From: Stigmatella erecta
Lineage (GTDB): Bacteria; Myxococcota; Myxococcia; Myxococcales; Myxococcaceae
Assembly: GCF_900111745.1 (NCBI RefSeq)
Contig: NZ_FOIJ01000009.1
Span: 186,001 to 250,000, forward strand
Direction of reading: 5' to 3'
DNA length: 64,000 nt
Shown: positions 23,131 through 40,245 of the stretch, one piece after another
Layout of the letters: each line of letters begins with the position of its first letter
How positions within the stretch are numbered: position 1 is the stretch's first letter
Translations under genes and position numbers: made by a program
Notes under the pieces: model-generated
The model's input: the letters and a program-made list of their open reading frames with translations, nothing else
Told to the model about the DNA's origin: nothing
Databases searched by the model: none

Positions 23131-23155
23131 GCGCTCTGGCACGAGCGGCTCAGTG
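23125..23155. terminator. Bidirectional terminator hairpin between convergent genes
   Basis: CACTGAGC and GCTCAGTG pair, extended by CGCTC/GAGCG-type pairs with one bulge, to give about 12 bp with a 6-nt loop. The hairpin contains the stop codons of both convergent genes (GH88 stop 23128-23130; ligase stop 23150-23152). Confidence 0.7.
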
Positions 23156-26100
23156 GGAGCGCGTCTGGGGAGGGACAGTCCGGGCCGCGCCGAGTCCCGT
23201 GGGAGGCGTGGCCTTGAGGGTCTCCACCTGGGAGCAGAGCCCACGGAGCACCTGCTCGGTGAGCTTCGCCAGCGTGCTCAGCAGTTCGCCGTCGGCCGTG
23301 CGGCCGTGCCAGAGCAGCTGGGCTTGTTCCGTGGAGAGCCGGGCCTCCACGCGCAGGGCAATGGCCCCCGTGCCCGGCCAGGGCCCGTCATCGAACAGGG
23401 CCAGGGTGTGCAGGGTGCCTCGGCTGGACGGGGCGCCTTCGTCCGCCAGGTGCAGGCCGAAGTCAGGGACGGGCAAGGCGGTGAGCGCGTCAGCCAGCGA
23501 GCGATCCTCGCCGTAGGTCCGCAGGCCCTCGTAGGCGAGCCCCTCCAGCGGGGCTTCCAGGAGTTGGAGGTGGAGCCGCCGCGCCAGCTTCTCCGGGGCC
23601 GCGCCGGGTTCCACGGCCACGAGCGTGGGGAACGCATAGTGGAGGTTGCCCAGCATGCGCGAGGTGTCCACCCGGTAGAGGCTGGTGCCCCGCGCGCTCT
23701 GCTCCAGGCTGACCCGTACCGAGGCGCGCTGGGTGTGCGCCGCGAAGGCCAGCGAGCACGCCGTCAGCAGCAGGGCCTCCCGGGAGACATCGAGCAGGGT
23801 GGCGGCCCGCTGGAGCGCGGCCGCGTCCACGGTGGCCTGTGCGCTGGGCGCGGGGACGCCCGAGGCACCGGGCGCGGGGGGGGCCGCCTCGGAGGAGGGG
23901 GAGGCCTGGAGCCAGTGCGTGCGGGCTTCCTGGACGGTCCGGGGCAGCCGGACCTCCGTGGCGAGCTGCTGGGCCCAGCCCATCAGGGAGCCGCTCTGGG
24001 GGGCCAGCCTCACGCGCCCTCGCAGCCGTGCCTGCTCGCACGCATCCGCCAGGTCCGAGGCGAGGATCCGCCACGAGGACTCGTCCATCAGCGAGGGGTG
24101 GCAGATCGCCATGAGCCACGGGGCCGCCTTGTCGCCCCGGGCGCAGAAGACGAACGTGGCCAGCGCGCCCGAGCACCGGCCCACTTCCGCGCCCAGCTTC
24201 CGGGCCATGGCCTCGACGGTGGGCCAGCACTCCACGTCCGTGCGGGACGCGAGATCAATCCGCGTCAGGGGAACGGGCTCCTTCTCGGGAGCGATGAGCG
24301 CGGCCCAGCCGGACGGGCCCTCGGCCCCCAGCCGCGCATAGCGCAGGCGCAGCGGCTCGTGGGCGGCCCAGACGGCGTGGAGCGCCTCCTCCGCGTGGAA
24401 GGCCTCGGTGCCCGCGGGCAGCTCGAACACCCGGCAGGCCCCGGTCCGGCCCTGGAGCCCACGCGCCGGATCATGCACCGCGTACAGCGCGGGCGTCAGG
24501 GGGAGCCGGTCCTGAGGCCCCTTCCAGGAGGATTCGCGCCCCGGGGAGAGGGAGGGCTCGCTCCGGGCGGGGGCAGGGCGCTCCTCGTCCTGGGCCTGGG
24601 ACAGGGACTTGAGGCCGGAGGCCTGGTGAAGCGCCCGTGTGGCGGAGCGGGAGACCCGGCCGGTGGAGGAGCGGGGCAGGGAGTAGGCCCGCACGAGCAC
24701 GACGTCCCGGGGCGTCACCCCGTGGCGCAGGTTCACGCGCCGGTGAATGGCCTCGATGATCTCCTGCTGCCGCCTTCGGGCGTCCGTGCCCACGGGTTCC
24801 AGCTCGGTGGGGAGCACCTCGGCGATCAGCGTGAGCTCCTCGTTGCGCCCCTGCTTGGAGGCGGCCGCCACGCAGCTGCCGGGCACGAGGGCGGGGTGGC
24901 TCGACTCCACGTCGAACTCGAGATCCTGCAGCCGCAGCTCCTGGCCCTGCCAGATGATGACGTCCCGGATCCGCCCGGTGACATACAGGTCTCCGCCCAC
25001 GCTCGCGCCGAGATCCCCGGTGCGCAGGAAGGCACGCCCCGCGGAGGCCGAGCCCGCGAGCCGCCCGCGGAACACCTCTTCCGTGGTGCCCACCCGGCCC
25101 CAATAGCCATCGGCCACGCTCAGGCCGGACACCCAGATCTCCCCGATCTCCTGCTCGCCGCGCACCGCGCGGGTGATCGGGTCCACGATGAGCACCTGGA
25201 CGCTCGCCGCGGACCCACTGCTCACCAGCTTCGTGGCCGCGCCCGGCCGCTCGGTGATGCGCTGCTGGGCCAGCGCGTCCACGGCCACCCCGCGCACCGT
25301 GGCGCCGGCGTCGGACTTGGAGCTGGAGATGAGGAACGTGGACTCGGCCAGCCCGTACAGGGGACGGAAAGCCTTGGCCTGGAAGCCGCACGGGCCGAAG
25401 TGCTCCGCGAAGCGCTCCAGCGTCTCGGCGCGCACCTGCTCCATGCTGGAGAAGGCGACGCGCCAGCGGCTCAGGTCCAGCTTGGCCCGCTCCGCCTCGC
25501 CCACCGTGCGCACGCACAGCTCATAGGCGAAGTTCGGCGCGCCGCTGACCGTCGCGCCGTGGGCGGAGATGGCCTCCAGCCAGCGCCCTGGCCGCTGGAA
25601 GAAGGACTGCGCTGGCATGAGCACGCAGTGCACGCCGGCGTACAGGGGCTGGAGCACGCCCTCCAGCAGCCCCAGGCCCTGGTGGCTGGGCAGCCAGAGA
25701 AGGATCTTATCGGTGAAGGTGTGCCCCAGCGATCGCCGCAGCGCCTCGCAGTTGTCCAGGAGGTTGGCGTGGGTGACGCGCACCCCCTTGGGGGCGCCCA
25801 GGGTGCCGGCCGTGTACTGGAGAAACGCGATGGCGCGCGTGTCCACCACGGGGGGATGCCAGTCAGCGGGGGGAGGCCCGGAGATGGCCTCGGCGGCGAT
25901 GAGATCGATGTGGCCCGCGAGCCCCTCGATGGTCAGCCGCTGGCCCTCCGCGGGGCGCTGGCCGGCGACGAGCGCCGCCGCGGCCCCGGAGTCCATGGCC
26001 AAGGTGGCCATCTGCCCGGGCCCCTGCTGGGGCGGGCCGAACAGCGGGGAGGGCACGGGCACGGCGATCGCGCCCGCGTACAGGCAGCCAAAGAAGCTGG

Positions 26101-26371
26101 CCACGGAGGTGGGGCCCAAGGGCAGGGACACGAGGACGCGCTGGCCCGACAGCCCCCGCCCGTTCAGCTCCGCGGCGATGGCCCGGGCGCGCGTGTCCAG
26201 CTCGGCGTACGTGAGGGTGACGTCCTCGGAGGGCTGCGCGCCCAGGAAGGTGAAGGCGGGGGCCGAGCCCTGGTCTGCCGCGCGGCGGCGGAGGATGTCC
26301 GCAAACGTTCTCGCCTCCTTCCACACGAGGCGGGCCCCGCCGCTTGCCGGGGAGTGTACGTGTTCTTTCAC
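23150..26371 (-). CDS. Fatty acyl-AMP ligase fused to a degenerate condensation-superfamily domain
   Basis: The start is a GTG at 26371 with no clear Shine-Dalgarno sequence. Residues 1 to about 580 are an adenylate-forming enzyme of the fatty acyl-AMP ligase type: FLQYTAGTLGAPKGV (P-loop), LPSHQGLGLL, YGLAEST, and the late FLRTGDLG and GRIRDVI. Residues of about 630-1050 resemble a condensation/epimerization domain, but the HHxxxD motif reads HPSLMD (second, catalytic His replaced by Pro). The end resembles epimerization-type domains. There is no carrier domain in the protein or next to it. FAALs activate fatty acids for loading on ACPs of lipopeptide or polyketide systems. Here it is a lone gene divergent from the polysaccharide operon, so the acceptor is unknown. 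Confidence 0.85.
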   Translation of the reverse strand: MKEHVHSPASGGARLVWKEARTFADILRRRAADQGSAPAFTFLGAQPSEDVTLTYAELDTRARAIAAELNGRGLSGQRVLVSLPLGPTSVASFFGCLYAGAIAVPVPSPLFGPPQQGPGQMATLAMDSGAAAALVAGQRPAEGQRLTIEGLAGHIDLIAAEAISGPPPADWHPPVVDTRAIAFLQYTAGTLGAPKGVRVTHANLLDNCEALRRSLGHTFTDKILLWLPSHQGLGLLEGVLQPLYAGVHCVLMPAQSFFQRPGRWLEAISAHGATVSGAPNFAYELCVRTVGEAERAKLDLSRWRVAFSSMEQVRAETLERFAEHFGPCGFQAKAFRPLYGLAESTFLISSSKSDAGATVRGVAVDALAQQRITERPGAATKLVSSGSAASVQVLIVDPITRAVRGEQEIGEIWVSGLSVADGYWGRVGTTEEVFRGRLAGSASAGRAFLRTGDLGASVGGDLYVTGRIRDVIIWQGQELRLQDLEFDVESSHPALVPGSCVAAASKQGRNEELTLIAEVLPTELEPVGTDARRRQQEIIEAIHRRVNLRHGVTPRDVVLVRAYSLPRSSTGRVSRSATRALHQASGLKSLSQAQDEERPAPARSEPSLSPGRESSWKGPQDRLPLTPALYAVHDPARGLQGRTGACRVFELPAGTEAFHAEEALHAVWAAHEPLRLRYARLGAEGPSGWAALIAPEKEPVPLTRIDLASRTDVECWPTVEAMARKLGAEVGRCSGALATFVFCARGDKAAPWLMAICHPSLMDESSWRILASDLADACEQARLRGRVRLAPQSGSLMGWAQQLATEVRLPRTVQEARTHWLQASPSSEAAPPAPGASGVPAPSAQATVDAAALQRAATLLDVSREALLLTACSLAFAAHTQRASVRVSLEQSARGTSLYRVDTSRMLGNLHYAFPTLVAVEPGAAPEKLARRLHLQLLEAPLEGLAYEGLRTYGEDRSLADALTALPVPDFGLHLADEGAPSSRGTLHTLALFDDGPWPGTGAIALRVEARLSTEQAQLLWHGRTADGELLSTLAKLTEQVLRGLCSQVETLKATPPTGLGAARTVPPQTRSH

Positions 26372-26790: not shown

Positions 26791-27570
26791 ATGTTGCGTA
26801 ACCTCCGAGAACTCTACCAATACCGGGGCCTGTTGCTCAGCCTGACCCAGCGGGAGCTGAAGGCGCGGTACCGCGGCTCGGTGCTCGGGTTCTTGTGGAC
26901 GTTCCTCAACCCGATGCTGCAGATGGCCGTCTATACGCTCCTGTTCTCGGTCTACATGCGCCAGAACATCGAGCACTACCCGTACTTCATGTTCGTCGGG
27001 CTGCTGCCGTGGATCTGGTTCTCCAGCTCCATCGGTGCGGGGGCCAGCGCCATCAGCGACCGCCGGGACTTGCTCACCAAGGTGCGCTTTCCGGCCCAGG
27101 TGCTGCCGGCCACCGTGGTGGTCACCAACCTGTGCAACTTCATGCTGTCGGTGCCGCTGCTCATCGTCTTCGGGCTCGTCCTGGGGCGGTGGCCCTCCTG
27201 GCACCTGCTGTTCTTTCCGGCCGTGGTGCTCATCCAGCTGTGCGTGACGATGGGGCTGGCCTACCTCATCTCCGCCATCAATGTGACGTTCCGGGACCTG
27301 CAGCAGATCGTCGTCAACCTGCTGACCATGTGGTTCTTCGTCACGCCCATCTTCTACCAGGCGCAGACGGTACCGGACCGGTTCCGGGCCCTGGTCATTC
27401 TCGCCAACCCCATGGCGGTGATGGTCACGTCCTACCAGGCCATCTTTTATGAGCACCGGATGCCCGACCTGGGGCCGCTGCTGCTGTGGTTGGGTATCGC
27501 GCTCGTGCTGCTGGCGGTGGCCTCCAGCATCTTCGAACGGCGGCGCGAGGAGTTCGCGGAGGTCGTTTGA
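26791..27570 (+). CDS. wzm: Polysaccharide ABC-2 exporter permease (Wzm)
   Basis: The 259-residue protein has six predicted membrane helices and the ABC-2 pattern of O-antigen/teichoic acid exporters. It has an amphipathic N-terminus (LTQRELKARYRGSVLGFLW), the FVGLLPWIWF segment, and AINVTFRDL followed by FFVTPIFY. With Wzt it moves a lipid-linked glycan across the inner membrane. It is the first gene of an operon of closely spaced genes; its stop overlaps the TTG start of wzt (TTGA). Confidence 0.95.
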   Translation: MLRNLRELYQYRGLLLSLTQRELKARYRGSVLGFLWTFLNPMLQMAVYTLLFSVYMRQNIEHYPYFMFVGLLPWIWFSSSIGAGASAISDRRDLLTKVRFPAQVLPATVVVTNLCNFMLSVPLLIVFGLVLGRWPSWHLLFFPAVVLIQLCVTMGLAYLISAINVTFRDLQQIVVNLLTMWFFVTPIFYQAQTVPDRFRALVILANPMAVMVTSYQAIFYEHRMPDLGPLLLWLGIALVLLAVASSIFERRREEFAEVV

Positions 27571-28892
27571 GCCAGACACACAACAGGGATGCCATCGTCA
27601 TCCGCAATGTCGTCAAGAGCTTCCGCAAGAGCACCGTCCGGCGTGAGTACACGACGATCAAGTCGGAGCTGGTGCGCTGGATGATGGGCCGCAAGGACCG
27701 GGGCGAGAAGACCTTCATCGAGGCGCTGCGCGGCATCGATTTGACGATTCCCCGGGGCAAGACGGTGGGCATCCTGGGCCGCAATGGCTCCGGGAAGAGC
27801 ACCCTGCTCAAGCTCATGACGGGCATCTACTCGCCCACCTCGGGGAGCATCGACATCAACGGGCGGATCTCCGCGCTGTTGGATCTCGGGGCGGGCTTCC
27901 ACCCGGACTTCTCGGGCCGGGAGAACATCCTCATCAACGGCATCATCCTGGGCATGTCCCGGGCGGAGGTGCGCGCCAGGATGGACGAGATCGTCGCCTT
28001 CAGCGAGCTGGGCGACTTCGTCGACGAGCCGGTGCGCACCTACTCCAGCGGCATGTACATGCGGCTGGCCTTCTCGGTGGCCACCCACGTGGACCCCGAC
28101 ATCCTCATCGTCGATGAGATTCTGGCCGTGGGCGACGAGCACTTCGGCAAGAAGAGCATGGCGAAGATGATGGAGTTCAAGAAGGCCGGGAAGACCATCG
28201 TCCTCGTCACGCACGATCTGCTGACCATCGAGAAGTGGTGTGACACGGCCGCGTGGCTCGACGCGGGGCGCATCCGCCGCTTCGGTTCTCCGGAAGAAGT
28301 CGTCCAGGACTACCGCCGTGCCGTGGCGCTGGCCGAGGAGCAGTTCCAGGTGATGGTGCCCGCGGCGATCGCCGCCGATGGCGGGGCGCTGCCCGCGCTG
28401 GATGCCCCGGCGGAGCCCGCCTCCAACGCCGCGGCCATGCTGAAGATCTCGGGCGTGCGCCTGACGCGCCGGGATGGCGTGGAGACCTCCCGGGTGGACA
28501 CGGAAGAGGGGCTCTCGCTCCACCTGGACTTCACGGCGTTTCAGTCGGTGGAGGACGCGGACTTCGTCGTCGCGCTGCGGCGGACCGATGGGATGCTCGT
28601 GTATCAGACGAGCACGGCGGCCGAGGCGCTGCCCTTGCCCCGGCCTCTGGCGAGGCAGGGCTCCCTGGTGTTGCTCATCGAGCGCGTGGGGCTGACGGCC
28701 GGTGACTACCTCTTCGATGTCTCCGTGCGCTCCGCGTCCGGGCAGAGCCAGGACATGCACCGCGGCGTCTGCCCCTTCACGGTGACCTCGGCCATCGCGG
28801 ACGAGGGCATCGCGCGGCCGGCGCACTGCTGGCGCGTGGAGAGCGAGGGGACCGCCAAGCTGGAGCTTCTGCCGAGGTGGGTCGGCTCGTGA
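27567..28892 (+). CDS. wzt: Polysaccharide ABC exporter ATPase with carbohydrate-binding C-terminal domain (Wzt)
   Basis: The start chosen is TTG 27567, overlapping the wzm stop, with GGAGG 4 nt upstream. The frame is open further back, but that part overlaps wzm. The 441-residue protein has Walker A (GRNGSGKST), the exporter-specific GAGFHPDFSGREN, the signature YSSGMYMRLAF and Walker B ILIVDE. After about residue 285 a separate beta-rich domain resembles Wzt C-terminal domains, which recognise the finished chain end. Export may therefore depend on a terminal modification of the glycan. A GT2 gene follows with a GTGA overlap. Confidence 0.95.
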   Translation: MSQTHNRDAIVIRNVVKSFRKSTVRREYTTIKSELVRWMMGRKDRGEKTFIEALRGIDLTIPRGKTVGILGRNGSGKSTLLKLMTGIYSPTSGSIDINGRISALLDLGAGFHPDFSGRENILINGIILGMSRAEVRARMDEIVAFSELGDFVDEPVRTYSSGMYMRLAFSVATHVDPDILIVDEILAVGDEHFGKKSMAKMMEFKKAGKTIVLVTHDLLTIEKWCDTAAWLDAGRIRRFGSPEEVVQDYRRAVALAEEQFQVMVPAAIAADGGALPALDAPAEPASNAAAMLKISGVRLTRRDGVETSRVDTEEGLSLHLDFTAFQSVEDADFVVALRRTDGMLVYQTSTAAEALPLPRPLARQGSLVLLIERVGLTAGDYLFDVSVRSASGQSQDMHRGVCPFTVTSAIADEGIARPAHCWRVESEGTAKLELLPRWVGS

Positions 28893-29734
28893 CGGCGGGC
28901 GGGCCACGGCAGGGGGCCCCGCTCTGGGTGGGGGTCGTCCTCTACCAGAACTCGCCACGGGAGCTGGAGCGGCTGTGCGCGGCGCTGCGGTTGAACCGGG
29001 AGACGCCCGGGGCGCCGGCGTTCCGGACCATCTGGTGGGACAACTCCCCCACGGAGGCGCTTCGCGCGGAGCTGGCGCGGCTCGTGCCCGGGGACACCTA
29101 CCGCTTCGCGGGCGAGAACCTGGGCTTCGGCGCGGCGCACAACCGCCTGATGCGGGAGGCCTTCGCGTCCCCCGGCACGCGCGCCTACGTGTGCCTCAAC
29201 CCGGACGGGGTGCCGCACCCGCGCTGCCTGGCGGAGCTGGAGGCGGAGGCGGAGCGGCCTGGACGGACGGGGCTCGTCGAGGCGCGCCTGTTCCCGGATG
29301 AGCACCCCAAGCCCTACGCGCCCCTGACGCATGAGACGCCCTGGTGCTCGGGGTGCATGGTGCTCGTCACCGCGGCGCTGTACCGGGAGGTGGGCGGCTT
29401 CGACGAGCGCTTCTTCATGTACTGCGAGGACGTGGATCTCTCGTGGCGGGCGCGGGCCGCGGGCTTCTCCGTCCGCGTGGCGCCTCGGGCGCTCATTCAC
29501 CACTACACCGTGGACCGGCCGCTGACGCCCGCCCGCGAGCGCAGCGTCCGCCGCAGCGCGGCCCTGCTCGGCGCCAAGTACGGAGACGAGGCCTTCCTGC
29601 AGGCCCGCCTGGCCGAGTACCGCGCCCTGGGGGGCGAGCCGTTCGCGGTGCCCCCCGTGTCCCGCCCTGGGGAGGCCCTGGCGCGGATCGCCGACTTCCG
29701 TCACCTCTATCTGTTCGCGGAGTCCCGATGGTGA
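28889..29734 (+). CDS. Family 2 glycosyltransferase (rhamnosyltransferase-like)
   Basis: The start is GTG 28889 in a GTGA overlap with wzt; GTG 28877 is an in-frame alternative. The 281-residue protein is a GT-A enzyme: WVGVVLY at the N-terminus, then WWDNSP, ENLGFGAAHN and CLNPDG (the metal-binding aspartate position), then GCMVLV and FDERFFMYCEDVDLSWR (ED acceptor/base motif). It resembles rhamnosyl/galactofuranosyl-type transferases. It probably adds a sugar to the exported glycan in the cytoplasm. The next gene starts inside its last codons. Confidence 0.92.
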   Translation: MTAGGPRQGAPLWVGVVLYQNSPRELERLCAALRLNRETPGAPAFRTIWWDNSPTEALRAELARLVPGDTYRFAGENLGFGAAHNRLMREAFASPGTRAYVCLNPDGVPHPRCLAELEAEAERPGRTGLVEARLFPDEHPKPYAPLTHETPWCSGCMVLVTAALYREVGGFDERFFMYCEDVDLSWRARAAGFSVRVAPRALIHHYTVDRPLTPARERSVRRSAALLGAKYGDEAFLQARLAEYRALGGEPFAVPPVSRPGEALARIADFRHLYLFAESRW

Positions 29735-31167
29735 ACACCCTTGGCAAGGCCCTGGAAGACATGAAGGTGGTGGAGCCCCTGCGTGCCTTCGTGCGGGGGC
29801 GCGTGACGCCGGAGAGCCGGGTGGCCCTCTTCGGGGGAGAGGGCGGGCTGTCCCGCGAGCTGGCCTCCGTGGGGTGCGCGGTGTGGGCAGGGGGCGCGTC
29901 CGAGCTGGAGGCGCTGCAGCGCTTCGCGCCGACGCACGTCGTGCTGACGGGGAACTCGCTGCAAGAGGGGCTCGAATACCTGGCGAGCGCCATCCTCGCG
30001 GTGTTTCCCGCGGTGGAGGTACTCCTGGGCTTCGCCAACGCCGGGGCCGCCAACGCGCTGCTCGCCACCCTCCTGGAGGGTGCCCCGGGACGCACGGGGC
30101 CATCCGAGGTGGGCTTCCGGCGCAGCCTCTCCACCTGTGGCCTGCGCGTGGTGCACCGGGCGGCGCACTCCGTGGGCGCCCACATGGGGACGTTGGCGCC
30201 GGGAACCGAGAAGGCCCTCCACCAGCTCCTGAGCGAGCTCGAGCCGGGGGCGGGCGATGACATCATCCTGTATGCCCTCCGGCGGGCCCCCGTGGCCGCG
30301 GTCGCCCCCGCGCAGGAGCCGGGCCTGCTGAGCGTGGTGCTCTGGTGCGGGCCCGGCCAGCGTCCCCTGCTCGATGAGGCGGTGTTCTCCCTCACCTGCC
30401 AGCGCTACCGGCCCTTCGAGCTGCTCCTGGTGGAGCCCGAGGGCACGGAGGGAGACGCGGCGGTGCAGATCCTGGAGCGCTACCGGCGCATCGAGGACTT
30501 CGGCTTCCAGCACGTGCAGGGGCCTCCGGGGGAGCTGATGGACCGGGCCATCCAGCAGGCCCGGGGGCAGTACCTGGCCTTCTTCGAGGCCTCCGGGCTC
30601 GTCTACCCCGGCCACTTCGAGCAGCTGGTCCAGGCGCTGCGGGGCTCGGAGGCGGCGTGGGCGGTGTCGCGCGCCTTCCGGCGGGTCTCCCGGGCGGTTC
30701 CTGGCCAGGAGGACTACACCGAGACGAAGATTCCGTTCCCCCTGGGAGACCACCTGGAGCTGGACCAGCTGCGCCAGCACCCGTGGCTGATCCACGCGCT
30801 GCTCATCGACCGGAGCCGGATCGCCAACTTCTCCCTGCACCTCCCGGACCCCCAGCCGGGACAGGCCGCGACGCTGCCGTGGCGGCTCATGGCGCTGTTC
30901 GAGCCCGTGTTCCTCAATGGGCTCGCCACGTGTGAGCAGCGCGTACCGGAGGCGGCCCCCGTGGCCGTGGACCCCGAGGTGGGGACGCTGTGGAGTCTGC
31001 GGTCCCTCGGCGCCCTGGAGCAGATGGTGTCGCGGGCCCGGAGCGCGGGCCAGAGCGCGAAGGACCTGAGGCACCGCGCGCTCGATGCGCTCGACGCACG
31101 GCTGCGCGCGGGGGCCCCCTGGCTCCATGGGGCGCTGCGGCGCACCGCCTCCAGGTTGCTGAAGTGA
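29728..31167 (+). CDS. Probable two-domain protein: methyltransferase-like N-terminus, GT2-like C-terminus
   Basis: The ATG at 29728 overlaps the upstream stop by 7 bp. The 479-residue protein has an N-terminal half (about 20-190) whose strand/helix order, with RVALFGGEGG near 33 and a THVVLTG strand, suggests a divergent class I methyltransferase fold lacking the canonical GxGxG. The C-terminal half begins LLSVVLWCGP near 200 and looks like a GT-A domain (QRYRPFELLLVE, QARGQYLAFFEAS). The expected DxD is EAS, so transferase activity is uncertain. Its position suggests work on the exported glycan. Confidence 0.65.
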   Translation: MVNTLGKALEDMKVVEPLRAFVRGRVTPESRVALFGGEGGLSRELASVGCAVWAGGASELEALQRFAPTHVVLTGNSLQEGLEYLASAILAVFPAVEVLLGFANAGAANALLATLLEGAPGRTGPSEVGFRRSLSTCGLRVVHRAAHSVGAHMGTLAPGTEKALHQLLSELEPGAGDDIILYALRRAPVAAVAPAQEPGLLSVVLWCGPGQRPLLDEAVFSLTCQRYRPFELLLVEPEGTEGDAAVQILERYRRIEDFGFQHVQGPPGELMDRAIQQARGQYLAFFEASGLVYPGHFEQLVQALRGSEAAWAVSRAFRRVSRAVPGQEDYTETKIPFPLGDHLELDQLRQHPWLIHALLIDRSRIANFSLHLPDPQPGQAATLPWRLMALFEPVFLNGLATCEQRVPEAAPVAVDPEVGTLWSLRSLGALEQMVSRARSAGQSAKDLRHRALDALDARLRAGAPWLHGALRRTASRLLK

Positions 31168-31184: not shown

Positions 31185-33086
31185 ATGAAGCAGGTGGTCA
31201 TCCTGGCCGGAGGGAAGGGAACCCGGCTGGGCACCCAGCTGGGGGGACTGCCCAAGCCCATGATGGACGTGGGGGGCAAGCCGCTGCTGCAACACCAGCT
31301 GGAGCTGGCGCGCCGTCATGGCTTTACCGAGGCGGTGCTCTTCACGGGCTACCGGGCGGAGGCCATCGAGTCCTTCTTCGGCGACGGGGCCTCGCTGGGC
31401 ATCCGCCTCGTGTACCACCGCGAGTCCCAGCCGCTGGGCACGGCGGGGGCGGTGCTGGAGGGCCGTGCCCTGCTCGCCGAGCGCTTCCTGGTCATGTACG
31501 GCGACACCCTGCTGGACGTGGATCTGGACCGGTTCTGGGCCGCGCACGGTGCCGCTGGGGCGGACGTCACGCTCTTTCTGCACCCGAATGATCATCCGGC
31601 GGACTCGGATGTCGTGGAGGTGGACGCGGAGGGCCGGGTGCTCGCCTTCCATGGCTATCCCCATCCACCGGACGCGTGGCTGCCCAACCGGGTCAACGCG
31701 GCGCTCTACGTCGTCGAGAAGCGCGCGCTGCCCGAGTGGATGGAGCCGCCCCGGGTCATCGACTTCGCCAAGCACCTGTTTCCCGAGCTGCACCGCCAGG
31801 GCCGGTTCTTCCTGGGCTACGAGAGCCCCGAGTACATCAAGGACCTGGGCACCCCGGAGCGGTATGCCCGGGGGGTGACGGATTGGCGCGCGGGAAAACT
31901 CGCCCAGCGCTCGCTGAGCGTTCCCCAACCGGCGGTGTTCCTGGACCGTGACGGAACGCTCGTCCGGGAGGATGGCTACATCCGGACCCCCGAGCAGCTC
32001 CACCTGCTGGACGGGGTGGGCGCGGCCCTGCGGCGGCTCAATTCGTCCCCGTACCGCACGGTGCTGGTGACCAACCAGCCGGTCATCGCCCGGGGCGAGG
32101 CCACCGAGGCCACGCTCCAGCAGATCCACAACAAGCTGGAGACGCTGCTGGGCCGGGAGGGCGCCTATCTCGATCGCCTCTACTGGTGCCCGCACCATCC
32201 GGATGCGGGGTTCCCGGGTGAGCGGCGCGAGCTGAAGATCCGCTGTGAGTGCCGCAAGCCCGCCCCGGGGATGCTGGAGCGGGCGGCGAAGGACCTGTCC
32301 ATCGCGCTGCCCCGCTCGTGGCTCATCGGCGACAGCACGGTGGATGTTCGCACGGCCCATGTGACAGGCGTCCGCTCCATCCTGATGCGCACTGGCGAAG
32401 CGGGGCGCGATGGGCGGTTCCCGGACCGGCCGGACTTCGTCTTCCACGCGCTGGGGGATGCCGTGGACTACATCCTCCAGGGGCACGAGGCGCACCGGCG
32501 CCGCCTGGAGCCCGTGGCCGGGCGCATCCGTCCCGGGCAGCTCGTGGGCCTTGCCGGGCTGGCCCACTCGGGCAAGAGCAGCTCCGCGTCGGTCTTGCGC
32601 GAGCTCCTCCGCGAGCGGGGGCTCCAGGCCTGCATCGTGCCGCTGGATGCGTGGATCCGCTCCGAGGCGCGGCGCGGTGGGCCCGGGCCGCACCACAGTT
32701 ATGACTACCCCGCCATCGAGGCCGCCCTCGTGCCGCTCGCCTCTCGCACCGGAAGCCACACCGTGCGAATGCCACGGTACGAGCGCTCCACGCGCACCTC
32801 GCACCCGGATGGGGAGGTGCTGGCCGTGCAGCCCGGAGAGGTCGTCCTGGTGGAGGGCGTGGTGGCGCTGGACGTGCCCGGCCTGGAGCGGGTGCTGGAC
32901 CTCAAGCTGTTCGTCACCTGTGACGAGGCCGTACGCCGGGAGCGCTTTCTTCGGGACTACCGGTGGCGCGGGACGGCTTCCGAGGAGGGGGCCCTGGCCC
33001 GGTACGCCGAGCGGGAGGAGCACGAGAACCCACGCATCCGGGCCACGCGGGCGCGGGCGGATGCCGTCGTGGAGACAGGGCCATGA
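31185..33086 (+). CDS. hddC-gmhB: HddC-GmhB-P-loop kinase trifunctional fusion (GDP-heptose synthesis)
   Basis: The ATG at 31185 follows GGGGGAGG; a GTG at 31164 overlapping the upstream stop is an alternative that adds seven residues. In the 633 residues, 1-235 are a sugar nucleotidyltransferase (LAGGKGTRL, GLPKPM, VMYGD) like heptose-1-phosphate guanylyltransferase HddC. Residues of about 245-420 are a HAD phosphatase of the GmhB type (FLDRDGTLV, Asp254/Asp256; zinc site CPHH...CECRKP). Residues of about 445-630 are a uridine-kinase-like P-loop domain (GLAHSGKSS). The first two parts catalyse two steps from D,D-heptose 1,7-bisphosphate to GDP-heptose. The third has no obvious place in the known pathway; it may phosphorylate a sugar or nucleoside. 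Its stop overlaps hddA (ATGA). Confidence 0.9.
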   Translation: MKQVVILAGGKGTRLGTQLGGLPKPMMDVGGKPLLQHQLELARRHGFTEAVLFTGYRAEAIESFFGDGASLGIRLVYHRESQPLGTAGAVLEGRALLAERFLVMYGDTLLDVDLDRFWAAHGAAGADVTLFLHPNDHPADSDVVEVDAEGRVLAFHGYPHPPDAWLPNRVNAALYVVEKRALPEWMEPPRVIDFAKHLFPELHRQGRFFLGYESPEYIKDLGTPERYARGVTDWRAGKLAQRSLSVPQPAVFLDRDGTLVREDGYIRTPEQLHLLDGVGAALRRLNSSPYRTVLVTNQPVIARGEATEATLQQIHNKLETLLGREGAYLDRLYWCPHHPDAGFPGERRELKIRCECRKPAPGMLERAAKDLSIALPRSWLIGDSTVDVRTAHVTGVRSILMRTGEAGRDGRFPDRPDFVFHALGDAVDYILQGHEAHRRRLEPVAGRIRPGQLVGLAGLAHSGKSSSASVLRELLRERGLQACIVPLDAWIRSEARRGGPGPHHSYDYPAIEAALVPLASRTGSHTVRMPRYERSTRTSHPDGEVLAVQPGEVVLVEGVVALDVPGLERVLDLKLFVTCDEAVRRERFLRDYRWRGTASEEGALARYAEREEHENPRIRATRARADAVVETGP

Positions 33087-34063
33087 TCATCAGCCGGACA
33101 CCGCTGCGGATGAGCTTCGTGGGCGGGGGGAGCGATCTGCCCTCGTTCTACCGCGAGCATGGAGGGGCGGTCGTCTCCACCACCATCGACCAGTACATCT
33201 ACGTCACCGTTCACAAGAAGTTCGATGACGCCATCCGCGTCAGCCACGCGAGGACGGAGGAGGCCGCCAGCGTCGAGGCGATCGCGCACCCCCTGGTCCG
33301 CGAGGCCCTGCGGCTGCTGAAGATTCCGGGGGGCCTGGAGATCACCTCCATCTCCGACGTTCCCTCCCAGGGCACGGGGCTGGGCTCCTCCAGCACCTTC
33401 GCGGTGGGCTTGCTCCAGGCGCTTCATGCGTACCAGGGCCAGGCGGTGACCGCCGAGACGCTGGCCCGCGAGGCCTGCGCGCTGGAGATCGACATCCTCC
33501 AGGAGCCCATCGGCAAGCAGGACCAGTACGCGGCTGCCCACGGGGGACTGAACTTCATCCAGTTCCACGCGGACGGCGCCGTGTCCGTCCAGCCGGTCGA
33601 GTGCGCTCCGGAGACGGTGCGGACCTTCCAGCGCCGCACCCTCTGCTTCTACACGGGCCTCACCCGCAGTGCCTCCGCCATCCTCCAGGCGCAGCAGGAG
33701 GCGGTGCGCGGCAACCGGGACAAGCAAGACGTGCTGCGTCACATGGTGCGCCTCGCCCATGCGTTCAAGGAGGCGCTCGAACACGGTGACCTGGAGGCCG
33801 TGGGGGAACTGCTCCACGCCAACTGGGTGTTGAAGAAGAGCCTGGTGGACGCGGTGAGCACGCCGGCCATCGACGCGTGGTACGAGAAGGCCCGTCACGC
33901 CGGGGCGCTGGGCGGCAAGCTCCTGGGTGCCGGCTCGGCGGGGTTCCTGCTGTTCTATGCGCCCGAGGAGGCCCACCCCGCCATCGCCCAGGCCCTGGGC
34001 GATTTGCGGCGCATGGACTTCCATTTCGAGCCCCGGGGTAGTTCCATCCTCTTCGCGCAGTAG
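33083..34063 (+). CDS. hddA: D-glycero-alpha-D-manno-heptose 7-phosphate kinase (GHMP family)
   Basis: The ATG at 33083 overlaps the previous stop; upstream extension of the frame is shadow. The 326-residue GHMP kinase has TPLRMSFVGGGSD at the N-terminus, the ATP loop PSQGTGLGSSST near residue 95, and C-terminal GALGGKLLGAGSAGFLLF. This is the pattern of HddA-type kinases that phosphorylate D,D-heptose 7-phosphate at C1. It sits between the HddC-GmhB fusion and gmhA, so all GDP-D-glycero-D-manno-heptose steps are in one operon. A galacto- or fucokinase is less likely given these neighbours. Confidence 0.9.
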   Translation: MIISRTPLRMSFVGGGSDLPSFYREHGGAVVSTTIDQYIYVTVHKKFDDAIRVSHARTEEAASVEAIAHPLVREALRLLKIPGGLEITSISDVPSQGTGLGSSSTFAVGLLQALHAYQGQAVTAETLAREACALEIDILQEPIGKQDQYAAAHGGLNFIQFHADGAVSVQPVECAPETVRTFQRRTLCFYTGLTRSASAILQAQQEAVRGNRDKQDVLRHMVRLAHAFKEALEHGDLEAVGELLHANWVLKKSLVDAVSTPAIDAWYEKARHAGALGGKLLGAGSAGFLLFYAPEEAHPAIAQALGDLRRMDFHFEPRGSSILFAQ

Positions 34064-34083: not shown

Positions 34084-34668
34084 ATGTCGTACAGCAAGGC
34101 GTATTACAGCCGGATGGTGAAGGCCATCCTCGCGCTCGATTACGCCCAGGTGGACTTCTGCACGGGGCTCATCGAGGCCGCCTGGAAAGCGGACAAGCAG
34201 ATCTTCACGATGGGCAATGGCGGCAGCGGCTCCACGGCCTCCCACTTCGTGTGCGACTGGAACAAGGGCGTCTCGTACACGCGCGAGCACCGCATCCGGG
34301 CCATCTGCCTCAACGACAACGTGCCCACGATGATGGCCTACGCCAACGACGTGTCCTACGCGTCCATCTTCGAGGAGCCGCTGAAGAACTTCATGCGGCC
34401 GGGCGACCTGGTGATTGGCATCTCCAGCAGCGGCAACTCGCCCAACGTGCTCAACGCCATCCGGTGGGCCAACGAGAATGGCGGCATCACCCTGGGCCTG
34501 GTGGGACACGACGGGGGCCAGCTGAAGCCGCTCGCGCAGAACGTGCTGCACGTGGCCGTGAACGACGTGCAGCTCGTGGAGGATCTGCACCTGTCCTTCG
34601 GCCACGTCACCATGCAGCGGCTCAGCGGCATGCCGGCCGAGTGCTACGTGGAGCCGGGTGCGCGGTGA
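34084..34668 (+). CDS. gmhA: Sedoheptulose 7-phosphate isomerase (SIS domain)
   Basis: GGAGGAG stands 3 nt before the ATG. The 194-residue single SIS domain has MGNGGSGSTASHF near 42, ISSSGNSPNVL near 116, and a late VEDLHLSFGHV helix with the Glu and His used by GmhA-type isomerases. It makes D-glycero-D-manno-heptose 7-phosphate from sedoheptulose 7-phosphate, the first step of the pathway. It is the last gene of the wzm operon and faces the next unit with a 3-bp gap. Confidence 0.92.
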   Translation: MSYSKAYYSRMVKAILALDYAQVDFCTGLIEAAWKADKQIFTMGNGGSGSTASHFVCDWNKGVSYTREHRIRAICLNDNVPTMMAYANDVSYASIFEEPLKNFMRPGDLVIGISSSGNSPNVLNAIRWANENGGITLGLVGHDGGQLKPLAQNVLHVAVNDVQLVEDLHLSFGHVTMQRLSGMPAECYVEPGAR

Positions 34669-36799: not shown

Positions 36800-36827
36800 T
36801 TGACGCAGGGGAGTTCACTCCGATACG
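36800..36827 (+). promoter_or_regulatory. Sigma70-like promoter for rmlBDAC
   Basis: TTGACG (36800-36805), a 16-bp spacer and GATACG (36822-36827). It would give a leader of about 30 nt before rmlB. Confidence 0.5.
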
Positions 36828-36862
36828 CAGGGTGCCTCGCTTTTCTGGGGTCCGGCGCGTTC

Positions 36863-37882
36863 ATGAATGTTCTTGTTACAGGTGGTTGCGGATTCATCGG
36901 CTCCAACCTCGTCAAATATCTGCGGAAGCACCGGCCGGACTGGAAGGTCGTCAACCTCGACAAGCTCACGTACGCGGGCAACCTCGAGAACCTGGCCGAG
37001 CTGGAGGGAGACCCCCAGCACGTCTTCGTCCGCGGGGACATCGGGAGCCAGGATCTCATCGAGCACCTGCTCGTCCAGCACTCCATTGACGCGGTGATGC
37101 ACCTGGCCGCCGAGAGCCACGTGGACCGCTCCATCCTGGGGCCCGAGGTGTTCGTCACCACCAACGTGCTGGGCACCCAGCGGTTGCTGGAGGCCTGCCG
37201 CTCGCGCGGCATCCAGCGCTTCCTCATGGTGTCCACGGATGAGGTGTACGGCTCGCTGGGCCCCACGGGCGCCTTCACCGAGCAGTCGCCGCTCCAGCCC
37301 TCCAGCCCGTACTCCTCCTCCAAGACGAGCTCGGATCTCATCTCCCTGGCCTACCACCACACCTTCGGCATGGACGTGGTGGTGACGCGCTGCTCGAACA
37401 ACTACGGGCGCTACCAGTTCCCCGAGAAGCTCATCCCCCTGATGGTGGTCAACGCGCTGCACGACAAGCCGCTGCCCGTGTACGGCGACGGCGGCAACGT
37501 GCGCGACTGGCTCCACGTGGAGGACCACTGCTCGGCGCTCCTGCGCGCGCTGGAGAAGGGCAAGGCCGGCGAGGTCTACAACATCGGCGGCGGGGCCGAG
37601 CGCAAGAACATCGACATCGTCAAGGCGGTGCTGGGCCTCGTGGGCAAGCCCGAGTCGCTCATCAAGTTCGTGAAGGACCGGCCCGGCCATGACCGCCGCT
37701 ACGCCATTGATCCGTCGAAGATCAAGGCGGAGCTGGGGTGGACGCCCTCGCAGACCTTCGAGCAGGGGCTGGCCGAGACCGTGAAGTGGTACGTGGACCA
37801 CCCTGCCTGGTGGGAGCGGGTGATGAGCGGCACCTACCGCCAGTATTTCGAGACCCAGTACCGCGCCCGCCTCAAGGGCTAG
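36863..37882 (+). CDS. rmlB: dTDP-glucose 4,6-dehydratase
   Basis: The frame is open far upstream, across the GT4 gene, but the protein clearly starts at ATG 36863 (MNVLVTGGCGFIGSN, NAD-binding GxxGxxG). The 339 residues include HLAAESHVDRS, STDEVYGSL (Asp-Glu of the dehydratase site), YSSSKTSSD (the Tyr-x3-Lys pair; RmlB usually has YSASKA) and RCSNNYG. It converts dTDP-glucose to dTDP-4-keto-6-deoxyglucose, the second step to dTDP-L-rhamnose, and is first in an rmlBDAC unit. Confidence 0.97.
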   Translation: MNVLVTGGCGFIGSNLVKYLRKHRPDWKVVNLDKLTYAGNLENLAELEGDPQHVFVRGDIGSQDLIEHLLVQHSIDAVMHLAAESHVDRSILGPEVFVTTNVLGTQRLLEACRSRGIQRFLMVSTDEVYGSLGPTGAFTEQSPLQPSSPYSSSKTSSDLISLAYHHTFGMDVVVTRCSNNYGRYQFPEKLIPLMVVNALHDKPLPVYGDGGNVRDWLHVEDHCSALLRALEKGKAGEVYNIGGGAERKNIDIVKAVLGLVGKPESLIKFVKDRPGHDRRYAIDPSKIKAELGWTPSQTFEQGLAETVKWYVDHPAWWERVMSGTYRQYFETQYRARLKG

Positions 37883-37901
37883 CCTTTCCGGAGCCGTCAC
37901 C

Positions 37902-38813
37902 ATGCGCTTTGTCGTCACGGGTTCCAACGGGCTGGTCGGCAGCCGCGTCTGTGCCCAGCTGGAGCAGCGGGGCCACGAGGTGGTGGGGATCGGCCGGGGC
38001 GCGCGGCGCACGGGCGGGGCCCACCGCTACATCCCGGTGGACCTCACCCTGGAGGCGGACGTCCTCACCGCCCTCGACGCCGCGGCGCCCGACGCCGTCA
38101 TCCACCCGGCCTCCATGACGGAGGTGGACGCGTGCGAGCGGGCGCCGGACCAGGCCTACGCCGCCAACGTCACCGCCGCCATGGCCGTGGCCAGGGGCGC
38201 GCGCAAGGTGGGCGCCCACCTGGTGCACGTCTCCACGGACTACGTCTTCGACGGCAACGCGGGGCCCTATGACGAGGAGGCCCGCCCCAACCCGCGCGGC
38301 GTCTACGCCCTCACGAAGCACATGGGGGAGCAGGCCGCGCAGTCCTTCGTGCCCGGGTGCGCCATTGCCCGCACGGCGGTGGTGTACGGCTGGCCTCCCG
38401 CGGGCCGTCCCAACTTCGGCGCCTGGCTGGTGGGCGCGCTGGAGAAGGGGCAGACCGTGAAGCTCTTCGAGGATCAGTTCGTCGCGCCGAGCCTCGCCGA
38501 CAGCGTGGCGGCGATGCTGGTGGAGCTGGGCGAGCGCAAGCTGGGCGGCGTCTGGAACACGTGCGGCGGCGAGGTGGTCAACCGCGTCTCCTTTGGCCGC
38601 GCGCTGTGCGAGGTGTTCGGGTTCGACCCGGGCCTGCTCGTGCCCTCGCGCATGGCGGATTTGAAGTTGGCCAGCCCCCGCCCGCTGCACAGCGGGCTGA
38701 AGGCGGACAAGGCGAGGGCCCAGCTCCAGGCGAAGCCCCTCGCGCTCAACGAGTCACTGCAGCGGTTTCATGCGGCGTGGAAGGCCGGAACCACGCCTGT
38801 CCGAGGTGCATGA
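37902..38813 (+). CDS. rmlD: dTDP-4-dehydrorhamnose reductase
   Basis: GGAG is 8 nt before the ATG. The 303-residue SDR protein has the GSNGLVGSR nucleotide loop, [20 protein letters not shown], and YALTKHMGE (the Tyr-x3-Lys pair of RmlD). It carries out the last, NAD(P)H-dependent step to dTDP-L-rhamnose. Its stop overlaps or abuts the rmlA start (ATGATG). Confidence 0.93.
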
Positions 38814-39694
38814 TGAAAGGGATTGTTCTCGCCGGCGGTTCAGGCACGCGCCTGTACCCGCTGACGCGCGTCGTCAGCAAGCAGCTTCTGCCCGTCTACG
38901 ACAAGCCGATGATCTACTACCCGGTCACCACGCTGATGCTGGCGGGGATCCGGGAGATTCTCATCATCTCCACGCCCACGGATCTGCCGCGCTTCCGCGA
39001 GCTGCTGGGCACCGGCGAGCAGTGGGGGGTGCGCTTCGAGTACGCCGAGCAGCCCCGGCCCGACGGCCTGGCGCAGGCGTTCGTGATTGGCCGGCAGTTC
39101 GTGGGCAATGAGCCCGTGTGCCTCATCCTGGGCGACAACATCTTCTACGGCCACGGCTTCACCGACATGCTGCAGCGGGCCGGCAAGCGGAACCAGGGCG
39201 CCACGGTGTTCGGCTACTACGTGAAGGATCCCGAGCGCTACGGCGTGGTGGAGCTGGATGCGAACAACCGCGCGGTGAGCATCGAGGAGAAGCCCACCCA
39301 GCCCAAGTCCAACTACGCCGTCACGGGCCTGTACTTCTACGACAACCAGGTGCTGGACGTGGCCGCGCAGCTCAAGCCGTCCAAGCGCGGGGAGTACGAA
39401 ATCACCGACGTGAACGCCGAGTACCTGCGCCGGGGCCAGCTCCAGGTGGAGCTGATGGGCCGCGGCTACGCGTGGCTGGACACCGGCACCCACGAGTCGC
39501 TGATGCAGGCCTCCAACTACATCGAGATCATCGAGCGCCGGCAGGGGCTCAAGGTGGCGTGCCCCGAGGAGATCTCCTACCGCATGGGCTACATCACCGC
39601 CGCGCAGGTGGCCGCGCTGGCCGCGCCCATGCGCAAGAACGAGTACGGCCAGTACCTGCTGGCGCTCCTGGAGAACAAGGGGGCGGTGTCGTGA
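38813..39694 (+). CDS. rmlA: Glucose-1-phosphate thymidylyltransferase
   Basis: ATG 38813 is chosen because GAGG lies 6 nt upstream; ATG 38810 overlapping the rmlD stop is the alternative. The 293 residues show [33 protein letters not shown] and VEKP-type [14 protein letters not shown] motifs. The length is standard for RmlA. It makes dTDP-glucose from dTTP and glucose 1-phosphate, the committed step, which is usually feedback-inhibited by dTDP-rhamnose. rmlC follows with a GTGA overlap. Confidence 0.97.
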
Positions 39695-40245
39695 AGGTGA
39701 CGGAGACGGCCATTCCCGGGGTGCTCCTCATCGAGCCCAAGGTGTTCGGAGACGCGCGGGGCTTCTTCCTGGAGACCTTCCACGCCCAGCGCTACGCGGA
39801 CGCGGGCATCCCCGGGCCGTTCGTGCAGGACAACTACTCGCGTTCGGTCAAGGGCACGCTCCGGGGGCTTCACTTCCAGGAGCCCCAGCCCCAGGGCAAG
39901 CTCGTCCAGGTGGTGGCTGGCGCGGTGTTCGACGTGGCGGTGGACATCCGCCGGGGCTCGCCCACCTTCGGCAAGTGGGTGGGGGTGGAGCTGTCCGCGG
40001 AGAACCGGCGCCAGCTCTGGGTGCCGCCGGGCTTCGCCCATGGCTTCTGCGTCACCTCGGAGTCCGCGGACTTCCAGTACAAGTGCACCGCGCTCTACGC
40101 GCCCCAGAACGAGCGTTCCCTTCTGTGGAATGATCCGGACCTGGGCATTACCTGGCCGCTGGACGGGGAGCCGAAGCTGTCCGCCAAGGATGCCGCCGCG
40201 GTGCGCTTGAAGGATGCGCCGCTGTTGCCCACCTACGGGGGATAG
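39691..40245 (+). CDS. rmlC: dTDP-4-dehydrorhamnose 3,5-epimerase
   Basis: The GTG at 39691 overlaps the rmlA stop by 4 bp. The 184-residue cupin-fold protein has [28 protein letters not shown] (catalytic His), [11 protein letters not shown] (Asp) and [12 protein letters not shown]. It epimerises C3 and C5 of the 4-keto sugar and completes the rhamnose pathway with RmlA, B and D. Confidence 0.97.

Follow-up and report, generated by a model that had tools for sequence, protein, structure and literature searches.

The locus analysed here raises the question of why a gene that joins two enzymes of GDP-heptose synthesis in one reading frame should also encode a third domain resembling a P-loop kinase, when a kinase of the kind used by the known pathway is encoded by the very next gene. 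We have approached this question through the window, that is, the whole stretch of 64,000 nucleotides of Stigmatella erecta DNA that was analysed, and through related loci in other bacterial genomes.

A three-domain gene in a polysaccharide locus

The open reading frame concerned starts with ATG at 31185, ends with the TGA codon at 33084-33086 and has no internal stop. The features of this gene and its surroundings to which we refer are as follows, with the basis of each assignment in brackets.

26791-28892, + strand: ABC-2 permease and Wzt-type ATPase of polysaccharide export (ABC2_membrane, ABC_tran, Wzt_C)
31185-33086, + strand: three-domain protein of 633 aa (translation)
31185-31919, + strand: HddC-like (sugar-1-phosphate nucleotidyltransferase) domain, residues 1-245 (Pfam NTP_transferase)
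31920-32483, + strand: GmhB-like HAD phosphatase domain, residues 246-433 (2gmw; DxD, Cys/His residues)
32451-32525, + strand: continuous helix at the phosphatase-kinase joint, residues 423-447, 25 residues (AlphaFold2 predicted model)
32484-33083, + strand: third domain, of the PRK/uridine-kinase superfamily, residues 434-633 (Pfam PF00485, Foldseek)
32556-32582, + strand: P-loop GLAHSGKSS, residues 458-466 (translation, alignment)
32646-32648, + strand: Asp488, at the position of the uridine-kinase catalytic Asp (alignment)
32853-32855, + strand: Glu557, at the position of UCK2 Glu135, a Mg ligand (alignment)
33083-34063, + strand: hddA-like GHMP kinase (GHMP_kinases_N and _C; NCBIfam HddA model, 154.1 bits)
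34084-34668, + strand: gmhA-like SIS isomerase (SIS_2, E 1.5e-13; TIGR00441, 97.9 bits)
36806-40245, + strand: RmlB-, RmlD-, RmlA- and RmlC-like genes of dTDP-rhamnose synthesis (names inferred from Pfam families)

The first-pass annotation had described the gene as a fusion of two GDP-heptose enzymes with a P-loop kinase, and this description is borne out, as all three domains were matched within the single frame. Domain 1 matched the Pfam NTP_transferase family over residues 4-229 (E 3.9e-26) and, among solved structures, 5xhw (E 1.4e-18) and 6jq8 (E 5.4e-18), both of which are named 'putative 6-deoxy-D-mannoheptose pathway protein'. Domain 2 gave matches to HAD hydrolases, its top solved relative being the GmhB crystal structure 2gmw (residues 246-427, E 4.3e-30). 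The whole chain was modelled by AlphaFold2 with a mean pLDDT of 94.1 and a pTM of 0.92, and the order of its domains, HddC, GmhB and kinase, is not that of the pathway steps. Full-length relatives of the fusion are present in seven other Myxococcota genomes (96, 80, 61, 60, 39, 39 and 34 % identity) and it cannot therefore be put down to chance; to judge from the sequences, an architecture of three complete domains in one chain is almost certainly real.

The start codon of the hddA-like gene overlaps the stop codon of the fusion (ATGA), and all four kinds of GDP-heptose pathway enzyme are encoded together within the window. The occurrence together of these four kinds of enzyme is what the GDP-heptose pathway requires, according to the part of the published account consulted (PMC10680097). 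When domain 1 alone was compared with the NCBIfam models it scored 87.6 bits against the HddC model NF049965 (cut-off 300), which ranked third, and 164.2 bits against the mannose-1-phosphate guanylyltransferase model (cut-off 440). The top models for domain 2 alone, the hddA-like protein and the gmhA-like protein were, respectively, GmhB model NF006506 (151.4 bits, cut-off 178), HddA model NF049969 (154.1 bits, cut-off 600) and GmhA model TIGR00441 (97.9 bits, cut-off 209.45). Because these scores lie below the equivalog cut-offs we use the names HddC-like, GmhB-like, HddA-like and GmhA-like, and for the same reason the identification of the sugar as a heptose rests on the gene set. Read in this way, the gene product would combine several activities of GDP-heptose synthesis and carry a kinase as an accessory.

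The surroundings are those of a polysaccharide locus, with the export and rhamnose genes listed above and also a group 1 glycosyltransferase (Pfam). Between the latter and the fusion lies a gene for a 479-aa protein (29728-31164) with no Pfam match at E 1e-5, a 97 % identical relative of which is found in another of the loci examined (L044). Adjoining the export genes on the - strand is a gene for an AMP-binding enzyme with a condensation domain (23150-26371, approximately 1070 aa).

Occurrence, conservation and apparent loss of the third domain

Far from being a local oddity, the fusion proved to be widespread. An alignment of the three-domain protein was scanned against a genome collection of 84,980 species, which returned at least 593 stretches and at least 582 relatives. 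The best 80 of these relatives were examined. A long third part is present in 60 of them, which come from Pseudomonadota, Bacteroidota and other phyla, whereas 19 stop at the end of GmhB and L087 is truncated by the end of its contig; the kind of architecture search that had been suggested found the HddC-GmhB-kinase order again. The proportion of 60 in 80 is not a frequency, since a three-domain query ranks three-domain proteins higher. Together with the window and six Myxococcota loci, the 60 loci gave 67 three-domain rows, from which four incomplete or degenerate rows were dropped to leave a final alignment of 63. Seven further long frames from Myxococcota with weak kinase matches (L033-L035, L037-L040) were rejected as they had no HddC or GmhB match. 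Plasmid records with at least 80 % query coverage numbered 54, and two that were translated, from Methylovirgula and Rhizobium, carry the kinase with its P-loop. The plasmid records that were inspected label the protein 'HAD-IIIA family hydrolase', so that the kinase is hidden in annotation.

The residues on which the activities of the protein would depend are strongly conserved. In all 63 aligned rows the HddC-like domain retains G9, G10, G12, R14, K24, D107 and D220, which we take to be its nucleotidyltransferase signature and acidic residues, and the GmhB-like domain retains D254, D256, C335, H337, C354 and C356, the Cys and His residues among which presumably form a metal site. The P-loop had been called intact-looking from the window alone, and this holds more widely, as its Gly and Lys columns are each kept in 66 of the 67 three-domain rows. 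Within the 63 rows of the final alignment the third domain has Lys464 in 63, Asp488 in 63, Glu or Asp at 557 in 62, Arg587 in 62 and Arg or Lys at 595 in 63. By our own reading of the profile alignment, Asp488, Glu557 and Arg587 correspond to the catalytic Asp62, the Mg ligand Glu135 and Arg166 of UCK2, and the catalytic set of the uridine kinases (catalytic Asp, P-loop Lys/Ser and Mg-binding Glu) is therefore present. The dN/dS ratio of the third domain was between 0.09 and 0.28 in all eight pairs compared, dS being near saturation in the pair L106-L112; the ratio was higher for domain 3 than for domains 1-2 in six of seven comparable pairs, so that domain 3 is the less constrained. Distance matrices for domains 1-2 and for domain 3 were correlated (r 0.87, with none of 2000 permutations as high), and the third domain is thus, as far as sequences can tell, co-inherited and evolving together with the rest of the protein. 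Taken together, these data make it very probable that the third domain is an active kinase.

The third domain was encountered only in the fused state. A profile of the domain gave eight strong matches (140-209 bits, the next being 79.9) in 189 Myxococcota genomes, for each of which 16 first-look candidates were scored, and all eight lie in frames of 628-806 aa in the eight fusion-bearing genomes. Forty further genomes, of which 26 are three-domain (including L091, with a shortened third domain), one is degenerate and 13 are two-domain, gave 27 strong matches (122-246 bits, the next being 84.2) when up to 79 candidates were scored per genome, and all 27 lie in frames of 608-808 aa. Among the scored candidates of these 229 genomes, some of them fragmented, no free-standing member was seen. 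The sole extra strong match among the 40 genomes was a second copy in a Nitrospirillum genome, again of the order HddC-GmhB-kinase. This copy (L182, G206:C3:1550000-1562000) is divergent, its domain 1 being 33.6 % identical to that of the window, and no HddA or GmhA match was found within the surrounding 12 kb.

The first reading of the window had also pointed out that the pathway already has its kinase in HddA, and the wider survey agrees. Within the limited flanks available, HddA is found in 57 of the 67 three-domain loci (in 53 of them a short way downstream in the same orientation) and GmhA in 50, and the corresponding figures for the two-domain loci are 18 of 19 and 7 of 19. Ten three-domain loci lack HddA in the stretch examined, which might suggest that the third domain replaces HddA in some genomes; however, all nine such genomes that were searched (all but L115) encode HddA outside that stretch. 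Substitution for HddA was thus ruled out for these nine, and as a general explanation it is largely refuted and scarcely credible. As HddA supplies the known pathway kinase, an additional phosphorylation by the third domain is plausible.

Several observations bear on whether GDP-heptose synthesis needs the third domain at all. The 19 two-domain loci among the best 80 are one, and no close relative of the third-domain kinase was found elsewhere in the 13 two-domain genomes searched, so that a free gene supplying the kinase where the fusion has two domains was rejected as an explanation for these 13; the third domain is therefore seemingly dispensable, and GDP-heptose synthesis seems to proceed without need for it. 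When the HddC-GmhB portions of 86 rows were placed on a tree, built by a quick method and unrooted, at least ten changes between the two- and three-domain states were needed; L123 and L089, both two-domain, fall within starred sets that are otherwise wholly three-domain, a nesting that suggests loss of the third domain. L086 is the sole exception to the conservation of the P-loop among the 67 rows, and L082 keeps the P-loop and lacks the middle of the third domain. By its sequence, L086 is a natural kinase-dead relative. This locus, in a record labelled Brucella sp. (L086:6300-6881), has the third domain in frame without the P-loop and hddA directly behind it. To judge from these cases the third domain has apparently disappeared or become non-functional on more than one occasion, and it is for this reason that it looks accessory.

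The substrate of the third domain

Membership of the PRK/uridine-kinase superfamily is established for the third domain by its Pfam score and predicted fold. It scored 39.7 bits against PF00485 (PRK, phosphoribulokinase/uridine kinase; gathering cut-off 22), and of the 63 aligned third domains 49 matched this model at E 0.01 or better and 53 matched the P-loop model AAA_18. The model of the domain (mean pLDDT 96.0) had UCK2 as its top Foldseek match (E 5.5e-13), and VIA-align gave Z of approximately 19-21 to pantothenate kinase, UCK2 and phosphoribulokinase. By sequence and fold together, its relatives are uridine-cytidine kinases, pantothenate kinases, phosphoribulokinases and the sugar-transport-linked kinase 3c8u, and since these solved relatives are close together in score the fold does not pick a substrate. 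The alignment with phosphoribulokinases was too weak for their phosphate-binding residues to be read.

The first-pass annotation had suggested that the extra domain carries out another phosphorylation, of a nucleoside or of a salvage sugar for instance; the phosphorylation itself is upheld as plausible, whereas the nucleoside finds no support in the data. A salvage kinase for uridine or another nucleoside that happens to be fused would account for the finding that sequence comparison ranks uridine kinases first among solved structures (E 6e-20 with a profile) and for the retention of the catalytic residues. The structural account of UCK2, in the portion consulted, gives the roles of the catalytic Asp62 and the Mg ligand Glu135 and reports that Asp84 and Arg166 bind ribose and that His117 and Tyr112 contact the base (PMC9163393). 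Counterparts of Tyr112 and Arg166 are present in the third domain, which also speaks for a nucleoside. The position of His117 is occupied by Arg in the window and in 34 of the 63 third domains, but it decides nothing, since His is mostly absent even from the uridine-kinase rows (Ser in 26, His in 7, Cys in 1). The comparison set was chosen solely on profile score from the weaker matches in the Myxococcota genomes, 38 loci yielding 34 distinct rows. An Asp-His-Pro motif, the Asp of which is by our own reading of the alignment the ribose-binding Asp84 of UCK2, is present in all 34 of these rows and in none of the 63 third domains, in which Gly, Val and Leu predominate at its columns. Conversely, Arg497, Arg610 and Glu614 are kept in 61, 62 and 62 of the 63 third domains, and the uridine-kinase rows have opposite them Leu (19), Met (12) or Arg (3), Val (34) and His (34), respectively. 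The third domain scored 47.0 bits against the NCBIfam uridine kinase model NF004018 (cut-off 180) and 41.0 against TIGR00235 (cut-off 220.3), whereas a separate uridine kinase encoded by the same genome exceeded both cut-offs (275.9 and 244.9 bits). On the strength of the absent motif and the low scores we reject a uridine kinase; the domain is very likely not a nucleoside kinase, and fortuitous fusion of such an enzyme is a most improbable explanation.

Our working hypothesis is that the kinase is active and acts on a small substrate of the sugar type rather than on a nucleoside. Known enzymes of the PRK/uridine-kinase superfamily phosphorylate primary alcohols, and since a heptopyranose has no primary hydroxyl other than that at C7, phosphorylation at this position is favoured. 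The most likely reaction would be the transfer of phosphate from ATP to position 7 of free heptose or sedoheptulose, in which case a salvaged sugar could pass, once phosphorylated, to GmhA or HddA; alternatively, the kinase might rescue heptose from which the adjoining GmhB domain had removed phosphate too early. We therefore propose, tentatively, that the third domain may be a 7-kinase of unphosphorylated heptose or heptulose serving salvage or repair, the substrate being the inferred part of this proposal. The fuller version, that these domains constitute an undescribed family of heptose/heptulose 7-kinases fused to the GmhB that removes the same phosphate, as a salvage or repair module spread over phyla and missed through its HAD-IIIA labels, is somewhat doubtful as a whole. 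Neighbouring genes gave no clue to the substrate in the ten cluster representatives that were annotated: these comprised glycosyltransferases, epimerases, methyltransferases, a tRNA-modifying enzyme and a NUDIX hydrolase, with no sugar importer or heptose-releasing enzyme among them, and counts of such clusters are rough because the clusters include antisense frames of GC-rich DNA. In one Bacteroidota locus the fusion is closely preceded by a gene for a NUDIX hydrolase (L106:4156-4713), with related frames in nine further loci from this phylum.

Three other readings have to be weighed against 7-phosphorylation of a free sugar. The kinase might act after HddC and add phosphate to C7 of GDP-heptose, or of a modified form of it, with the result that the polysaccharide would incorporate a heptose phosphate. 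Its fusion to an enzyme that makes GDP-heptose and the polysaccharide genes nearby are consistent with this, as is the NAD-dependent epimerase/dehydratase gene directly upstream of 33 of 68 rows counted as three-domain (including the contig-cut L087), which suggests a further change to the sugar; the five of these upstream epimerases that were compared all scored below the NCBIfam cut-offs shown, so that a GDP-heptose-modifying enzyme is possible. However, such an epimerase accompanies 14 of the 19 two-domain rows too, and the annotated neighbour clusters revealed neither a phosphotransferase nor any other gene confined to the three-domain loci; we consider this reading improbable. The upstream gene is seen in L055, L056, L085 and others, and none was found beside the fusion of the window.

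The substrate might instead be an unrelated small sugar, polyol or acid of the same glycan, the fusion serving only to tie expression and assembly together. This would suit a superfamily of many substrates, within which Foldseek and VIA-align rank UCK, pantothenate kinase, phosphoribulokinase and 3c8u closely, but it sits less well with the co-inheritance of the kinase with the heptose domains over several phyla, and we regard it as unlikely. Lastly, the domain could be a nucleotide-binding structural or regulatory module in which, for example, ATP sensing sets the output of GDP-heptose. Its apparent repeated loss, the retention in L086 of a domain without a P-loop and the single continuous helix that joins it to GmhB in the predicted model can all be cited in favour of such a role; against it, the catalytic Asp is present in 63 of 63 rows and the Mg-binding acid in 62 of 63, neither of which is needed for mere binding, and a module of this kind is decidedly improbable.

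Comparison with known systems

Leaving its substrate aside, the three-domain enzyme is, on sequence evidence, widespread and conserved, and our searches found it undescribed: no description of the three-domain fusion or of the third domain was found in the literature searched, in which few subscription journals were covered. A kinase that is conserved, seemingly dispensable and in these searches only ever fused points to a step in heptose metabolism that has perhaps gone unassayed. If this is so, an entry for salvage or repair, or a phosphorylated activated heptose, would redraw pathways that matter because heptoses are building blocks of lipopolysaccharides and capsules.

The known GDP-heptose pathway uses the same four kinds of enzyme, which in the window are encoded by three adjacent genes; in the sections of the pathway literature consulted, by contrast, the genes are separate and no third kinase domain is described. 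The uridine-cytidine kinases (human UCK2 and the Thermus uridine kinase) share the fold and the catalytic residues of the third domain, but their Asp-His-Pro motif and further conserved positions are replaced in it. 3c8u has the same fold as the third domain (Z 19.4 over 191 residues), and from their names we infer that it and FrcK of Sinorhizobium belong to one family. FrcK, the closest parallel among the accounts consulted, is a kinase linked to sugar use, the substrate of which was not established in the consulted part of its description, and unlike the fusion it is encoded by a free-standing gene beside a sugar importer (PMC10433430). The window encodes its GHMP kinase separately and the kinase within the fusion has a different fold, whereas the kinase of FKP is itself of the GHMP kind and makes a 1-phosphate. 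FKP, as far as the consulted text describes it, is a sugar kinase (fucokinase) fused to a GDP-fucose pyrophosphorylase and is like the fusion in combining a sugar kinase and a GDP-sugar pyrophosphorylase in one chain (PMC12732313). The two-domain HddC-GmhB fusions of 19 loci share the first two domains and lack the third, and these natural relatives are ready controls.
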